Source of the DNA: Fidelibacterota bacterium
GTDB taxonomy: Bacteria; Fidelibacterota; Marinisomatia; SCGC-AAA003-L08; GCA-2689995
Assembly (NCBI GenBank): GCA_002689995.1
Contig: NZIV01000063.1
Coordinates: 21,010-85,009, forward strand
Direction: 5' to 3'
DNA: 64,000 bases
Shown here in pieces: positions 40,111 to 41,175 of the stretch (positions within the stretch are counted from its first letter, which is position 1; every line of letters begins with the position of its first letter). Under the pieces are notes generated by a model. That model was not told where the DNA came from. It saw nothing but the letters and a program-made list of their open reading frames with translations, and did not search any database. A program made the position numbers and the translations under genes.

Positions 40111-41175
40111 ATGCGTTTTTTACTTCTAATAATTTTTTTTATATGTATTCCTTTCACTCAAACCCAAGAATGTATAAATATGCCTCTTAATTCGATCATA
40201 AGTACTTATAGCATCGGAGATACTATTAGTATAGATGACCAATTACGACCATATAATGTGTGCTATTCATCTGAAAATAATAGTAATAATACATTTAGGC
40301 TTGCAGATTTTAATGGCAATTTAAATGGAGGCCATTATCGAGTAACTTTAATAAGTATGAATGCATCATGGTGACCGGCATGTTATGGATACATCAGTAT
40401 GATGGATCAAATTCTTGAATTTATAAATATAAACAATCAAATAGAGTTTTTAGTTAGTTTTGATGATGGTACAGGACCTAACTCAACATATACATGCAAT
40501 GAATGGGGTAATTTATATAATGAACTTGGCGAATATGGAAATCAACCAATAATTTTAAATGGTGATGATGACTATAATCAAGATGGAGACCCTGATCATC
40601 ATTTATGGAATTCATTTGCAGGAAATTCTTATTCTGCATACGTAATGTTAGATCATCATATGGTTGTTAGATATTTGTTTGATATTCCAGATTTATATCA
40701 ATTTCAATACAACTACTTAACATCACTCATGAATGCGATGAATGGTTGCACAGAACAATCTGCATGTAATTATAGTCATACTGCTATATACAACGATGGC
40801 ACATGTCAATTTGATCAAGAATGTGATGAAAATTTGAACCCTTGTTCGAACTTTTCATCTCATTTAGATTGTATATCTGAATCAAATTGCTTCTGGATGG
40901 GTGATCATTGTATGGAAGGCTCAAATTGTACAGACCCTATCGCAGAAAACTTCAATCCAATAGCAGAAACAACAGGAATCAATGATAATATAGAGTGTAT
41001 TTACTCTCCTTTTATAGAATTTGGCTGTATTTATCCAAGTGCAGTAAATTTTAATAGTGAAGCTCGTATTGATGATGGAACTTGCCAGTTTAATTATAAT
41101 GATGTGAACGAAGACAATATCGTCGATATTTTAGATATTATTATTATACTTTCTGAAATAATAGAGCTTGAATAA
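40111..41175 (+). CDS. Selenoprotein: secreted thioredoxin-fold protein with WUPAC active site
   Basis: ATG 40111 begins a frame interrupted by one TGA (40372-40374). With Sec there the product has 354 residues: signal peptide (1-18), thioredoxin-like domain (about 50-205) containing 'LISMNASWUPACYGYISMMD' (W87-U88-P89-A90-C91, the classical W-C-P-A-C with Sec), and then Cys-rich repeats of the 'GCTxxxACNYxxxAxxDDGTC' type. A half dockerin-like repeat closes it (DVNEDNIVDILDIIIIL). A SECIS-like hairpin follows at 21 nt. It lies 5 bp after the UAGU selenoprotein gene, so the two form an operon of exported selenoproteins. Gene callers would split it into 40111-40374 and 40399-41175. Confidence 0.9.
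40372..40408 (+). promoter_or_regulatory. Bacterial SECIS of the WUPAC gene
   Basis: The loop AGTAT (40396-40400) begins 21 nt after the UGA and is closed by GATACATC/GATGGATC (40388-40395 and 40401-40408), with one A-G mismatch. G is second in the loop. Placement in the reading frame and distance match bacterial SECIS rules. Confidence 0.7.

Follow-up and report, generated by a model that had tools for sequence, protein, structure and literature searches.

The Locus and Its Genes

The window, i.e., the whole stretch of 64,000 nucleotides that was analysed, originates from an uncultured Marinimicrobia (SAR406) bacterium and carries two adjoining genes interrupted by in-frame TGA codons (Table 1). 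In the downstream gene, as read in the window, the only internal stop is the TGA at 40372, which lies in the context SMNASW-U-PAC; with this codon read as selenocysteine (Sec), 40111-41175 encodes a protein of 354 residues (P0001). Standard gene calling splits the frame into ORFs of 87 aa (40111-40374) and 258 aa (40399-41175), the two false genes that the original prediction had expected. The upstream gene, encoding the partner protein P0002, contains two TGAs three codons apart, and its stop codon ends at 40105, leaving the predicted gap of 5 bp to the ATG at 40111.

Table 1. Coordinates of the W-U-P-A-C gene, its upstream partner and their predicted elements in the window.
Feature	Position	Strand	Remarks
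Gene of putative exported redoxin/ResA-like selenoprotein, U-A-G-U, dockerin tail (partner)	39428..40105	+	
First Sec codon of partner gene	39599..39601	+	TGA
Second Sec codon of partner gene	39608..39610	+	TGA
Partner SECIS hairpin UUGUGC-AGUU-GCACAA	39621..39636	+	comparative
Gene of putative exported thioredoxin-like selenoprotein, W-U-P-A-C, 354 residues	40111..41175	+	stop TAA 41173-41175
Signal-peptide-like N-terminus MRFLLLIIFFICIPFTQTQ	40111..40167	+	by eye from sequence
Thioredoxin-like domain, residues ~28-205	40192..40725	+	family alignment, profile matches
Selenocysteine 88 codon TGA	40372..40374	+	TGA in orthologues; Cys (TGY) at same codon in paralogues
SECIS hairpin CAUCA-GUA-UGAUG	40392..40404	+	loop 40397-40399; 22 nt UGA to loop; comparative basis
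Cys-rich repeats, GCTxxxACNYxxxA...DG(T/S)C and CFWMGDHCM type	40744..41088	+	
Short dockerin-like C-terminal tail DVNEDNIVDILDIIIILSEIIE	41098..41172	+	Dockerin_1 matches in paralogues and upstream protein

A third selenoprotein gene is located elsewhere in the window on the minus strand (32412-33425, TGA at 33287). Its product has a lipoprotein-like start and a thioredoxin-like domain with U-G-W-C, followed by TPR repeats, and the TGA is accompanied by the SECIS-like element UCGGCU-GGA-AGCUGA, with 17 nt between the UGA and the loop. Most of its full-length homologues contain one in-frame TGA, while those in the genomes G003 and G027 carry W-C-x-x-C in this position. A TAA in the G003 homologue of P0003, considered as an odd Sec codon, was rejected, being the terminal stop.

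Orthologues and the Sec/Cys Family

All 12 orthologues found in other genomes of the same order (Neomarinimicrobiota) carry an in-frame TGA, and therefore the one at 40372 is not a product of chance; in the 11 orthologues that were aligned by codon it invariably occupies the same codon. The named records with matches are those of Candidatus Neomarinimicrobiota and of TMED metagenome-assembled genomes (unplaced TMED bins), and a search of a phage collection gave no match. Purifying selection acts on both sides of the TGA, dN/dS being about 0.1 in closely related pairs: the values on its 5' and 3' sides are 0.10 and 0.08 for the pair L082-L083, and 0.08 and 0.12 for the pair L076-L080. Together with the single internal stop, these values bear out the claim of one frame running through W-U-P-A-C. 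Full-length homologues, the lack of which had been named as an argument against this reading, do exist, and no relative was seen in which the TGA is simply a conserved stop lacking a hairpin.

In the sample, 84 distinct members of the family were recognized, 66 with UxxC, one with UxxU, and 17 with CxxC, i.e., 67 Sec and 17 Cys members. In the Cys paralogues the position of the Sec codon is occupied by Cys (TGY), as had been anticipated for the classical W-C-x-x-C site. To explain the tree of 89 members, a minimum of five Sec/Cys changes is required, located on branches with good support, and on contig C33 of the source genome a WUGPC gene is directly followed by a WCGPC gene. One member, L029 (G006:C3), has two Sec codons in W-U-D-I-U. 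Clusters of at least three paralogues per contig, most of them with an in-frame TGA, are found on G002:C37, G008:C13, and G005:C44 (loci L030, L024, and L028).

The arrangement of the two genes is also conserved. In 13 of the 14 loci examined, these 13 being all the loci that hold a close orthologue, the family gene is preceded by a U-x-x-U gene with two TGAs whose end is no more than about 20 bases away, so that the proposed tandem selenoprotein operon is seen as a UxxU/UxxC pair kept across genera. This strict pairing suggests joint action of the two proteins. Elsewhere in the source genome, two paralogues of the partner (L159 and L160) have U-G-L-C.

The SECIS Hairpins

A SECIS-like hairpin had been placed at 21 nt, and the stem of the hairpin in Table 1 indeed starts at nucleotide 21 if the T of the TGA is taken as the first; its support is comparative. 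The energy of the hairpin in the window is no better than that of shuffled sequences (z +0.33); the isolated hairpin 40392-40404 has -1.8 kcal/mol, and the 51-nt segment folds at -7.5 kcal/mol by forming another structure. Since the energy test was not significant, it was replaced by analyses of covariation and synonymous recoding, and a first hairpin metric (the longest stem with any loop), which proved noisy, was dropped in favour of fixed-register and G-loop tests. In the fixed register all five pairs are formed in 29 of the 67 Sec members; when the 3' arms were shuffled 2000 times, this number averaged 8.9 and never exceeded 17. The related sequences in these counts are not independent. 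The loop starts with G in all 29 of these members, and the five-pair hairpin in this register is absent from all 17 Cys members. Other Sec members have an equivalent hairpin displaced by a few bases, such as UGGCCA-GGG-UGGCCA and CAUCGUA-GUU-UACGAUG. Among 17 in-register sequences 97.6% of the cells are paired and both sides have changed at four of the five pairs; as this set was picked for its register, the fixed-register count over all Sec members is the fairer one. When natural sequences were compared with their synonymous recodings, the Sec copies folded at -6.3 versus -3.3 kcal/mol (mean z -1.7), whereas for the Cys copies the values were -2.2 versus -2.2 kcal/mol (mean z 0.0). The two neighbouring paralogues on contig C33 differ in the same way: the WUGPC gene has CAUCG-GUU-CGAUG and the WCGPC gene is devoid of it.

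According to the bSECIS model, the bacterial element has a stem of 4-16 bp and a loop of 3-9 nt with G in one of the first two places, and is located 16-37 nt from the UGA (PMC13188914). With 5 bp, the loop GUA, and 22 nt, the hairpin 40392-40404 agrees with this model in stem, loop, and spacing. A hairpin of the bSECIS type is available in 66 of the 67 Sec members versus 10 of the 17 Cys members, and those of the Cys members are all at -1.6 kcal/mol or weaker. The energy bound of the model, -7.5 kcal/mol or lower (PMC13188914), is reached by 5 of 67 family members, and missed by the hairpin 40392-40404, when it is applied, as here, to the bare hairpin; this bound is a search threshold. An Rfam scan of the window found nothing. 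Taken together, the comparative evidence is strong that a SECIS stem, predicted from the sequences, is kept by compensatory changes in the Sec copies and is missing from the Cys copies.

In 12 sequences the hairpin of the partner gene has 100% of its cells paired, and three of its six pairs show compensatory changes. This single hairpin may serve both Sec codons, which are 9 nt apart, the distances between UGA and loop being 16 and 25 nt.

The Selenocysteine Machinery

The source genome encodes tRNA-Sec (65 bits, with a cut-off of 47), SelA (501 bits), and a Sec-containing SelD, whose gene has an in-frame TGA close to its start. SelB is located directly 3' of SelA in two frames, apparently owing to a frameshift, with the break near a run of T (L146, G000:C63:21400-25000). 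Since most relatives have SelB whole (it is above the cut-off in 30 of 40 relatives, usually adjoining SelA), the simplest reading of the split gene is that it is probably an assembly error of the source MAG. SelA, SelB, and tRNA-Sec are present in most of the relatives searched. Five genomes of the same class, all of family f6 (G041, G045, G047, G051, and G055), have neither SelA nor a tRNA-Sec above the cut-off, and in these five there is no match at all to the W-U-P-A-C protein. TGA remains a stop codon in the source genome, as it terminates 8 of the 51 long ORFs in the window.

Fold, Location, and Relation to Known Proteins

Searched alone, P0001 gives nothing above the cut-off in Pfam, NCBIfam, and PDB sequence searches, and its AlphaFold model is poor (pLDDT 44). 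The predicted thioredoxin fold is nevertheless upheld by family homology: clearly homologous paralogues hit the models of ResA, thioredoxin, and AhpC-TSA, and structures of the thioredoxin family are matched by the family profile. The predicted structure of P0002 is better (pLDDT 73), and it most closely matches the structures of ResA, DsbE, and peroxiredoxins. On the basis of the paralogue and profile matches and of the structural matches of the partner, P0001 may be assigned with moderate confidence, as regards the exact subfamily, to TlpA/ResA-like thioredoxin-fold selenoproteins. The signal-peptide-like start, recognized by eye, points to export.

Dockerin-like C-terminal tails are common to the putatively exported proteins encoded by 36948-38444, 39428-40105, and 40111-41175. 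In other members of the family a T9SS Por-type sorting tail stands at the place of the dockerin-like tail, which suggests that these tails are sorting or anchoring signals.

With oxidoreductases of the TlpA/ResA/DsbE type (Redoxin, AhpC-TSA, and Thioredoxin of Pfam) P0001 shares the thioredoxin fold, as judged by the family profile, the W-C-x-x-C site, and putative export; it differs from them in having Sec in place of the first Cys, P-A between the two active residues, Cys-rich repeats, and a dockerin-like tail, and in reaching no Pfam cut-off. Thioredoxin-like and redoxin UxxC selenoprotein families have been described in marine metagenomes (PMC2398784; PMC13188914, Table 1), and like them the W-U-P-A-C protein combines UxxC in a thioredoxin fold with a bacterial SECIS and Cys homologues; in contrast, no NCBIfam model matches P0001, the comparison with the published families covering motif, fold, SECIS, and Cys homologues. 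The Omp28-related selenoprotein GOS_C (NF045500) has UxxC and the same kind of dockerin-like tail as the family of P0001, but P0001 has no match to it, and the matches of family members, mainly in the tail, reach at most 63 bits, below its cut-off of 200. The family of the W-U-P-A-C protein is thus a new one within a known kind, the UxxC thioredoxin-like selenoproteins, and it is large and apparently undescribed.

The partner P0002 matches the TUGYCR thioredoxin-fold (seleno)protein model NF053656 across the thioredoxin domain with 77.8 bits, but does not reach its cut-off of 100, and U-A-G-U stands where NF053656 has U-G-Y-C. It has U-x-x-U in a redoxin fold in common with SelL and the Prx-like UxxU selenoproteins, but scores only 12.5 bits with the SelL-related model. 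SelL forms a diselenide, and by analogy a diselenide is possible in the partner, which also carries U-x-x-U in a redoxin fold.

Decoding of the TGA and the Proposed Function

The presence of the Sec machinery, the conservation of the TGA, the Cys paralogues with Cys at the same codon, and the covarying SECIS all argue for the selenoprotein reading; judged from sequence data, TGA 40372 is very likely decoded as selenocysteine. The small hairpin with its G loop, 22 nt 3' of the UGA, would be bound by SelB with Sec-tRNA, and translation would continue with Sec rather than terminate. In the protein, Sec88 would be the nucleophile, faster and more reversible in this role, and Cys91 the resolving residue. 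The W-U-P-A-C protein would be an exported thioredoxin-fold thiol-disulfide oxidoreductase, co-produced from the operon with the upstream U-x-x-U redoxin, and its likely task would be the reduction or exchange of disulfides or peroxides outside the cytoplasm. Such an extracytoplasmic oxidoreductase role is likely, with export and catalysis deduced from the family and its motifs.

Alternatively, the selenoprotein could play a non-redox role at the cell surface, in adhesion or in metal binding via the Cys-rich repeats and the dockerin-like tail, Sec being structural or metal-binding. Dockerin-like tails, thrombospondin-3 repeats, and Cys-rich repeats do occur in the family, but Sec stands exactly at the catalytic Cys of W-C-x-x-C and family members match thioredoxin, ResA, and AhpC-TSA models, which makes such a role unlikely. 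The TGA could also be read as Cys or another ordinary residue, owing to an altered code or a suppressor tRNA, and with Cys the protein should still work, as the paralogues with Cys at this codon indicate; yet TGA ends long ORFs in the same window, in the family it accompanies a covarying hairpin that is absent from the Cys copies, and the genome has tRNA-Sec, SelA, SelB, and a Sec-containing SelD, so that this explanation is highly improbable. Equally hard to credit is a true stop in a pseudogene or between two separate genes, which would fit the split made by standard gene calling and the non-significant hairpin energy, but not the in-frame TGA of the 12 orthologues, the protein conserved on both sides and still under a dN/dS of about 0.1 after the TGA, the Cys of the paralogues, or the Sec machinery.

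A wider picture can also be drawn, which is speculative and on balance doubtful: the conserved pair would form a dedicated extracytoplasmic selenium redox relay, in which the diselenide-forming U-x-x-U redoxin and the W-U-P-A-C protein exchange electrons, both placed by their dockerin-like tails, and Marinimicrobia would possess a large set of exported selenoproteins, for the most part unannotated, whose SECIS hairpins are unusually weak.

Significance for Marinimicrobia

SAR406/Marinimicrobia are widespread in the ocean interior. The literature collection that was searched contained no paper on the selenoproteins of the phylum Neomarinimicrobiota. In a survey from 2016 three SAR406 single-cell genomes were given as "orphan SelD", i.e., having SelD, no other selenium genes, and no known selenoproteins (PMC5029168). 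This status possibly reflects the incompleteness of the single-cell genomes, or undescribed families with weak hairpins. Many relatives of the source organism have several putatively exported Sec-containing thioredoxin-like genes that are split at the UGA by standard gene calling, and the weak hairpins of the Sec genes of Marinimicrobia may escape SECIS searches based on energy. The adjoining Sec and Cys paralogues, with the hairpin in the Sec ones only, offer a clean natural test of the minimal bacterial SECIS. What deserves most attention is the occurrence of a conserved UxxU/UxxC operon and of a multi-copy family of putatively exported selenoproteins in a group three single-cell genomes of which had been given as "orphan SelD".
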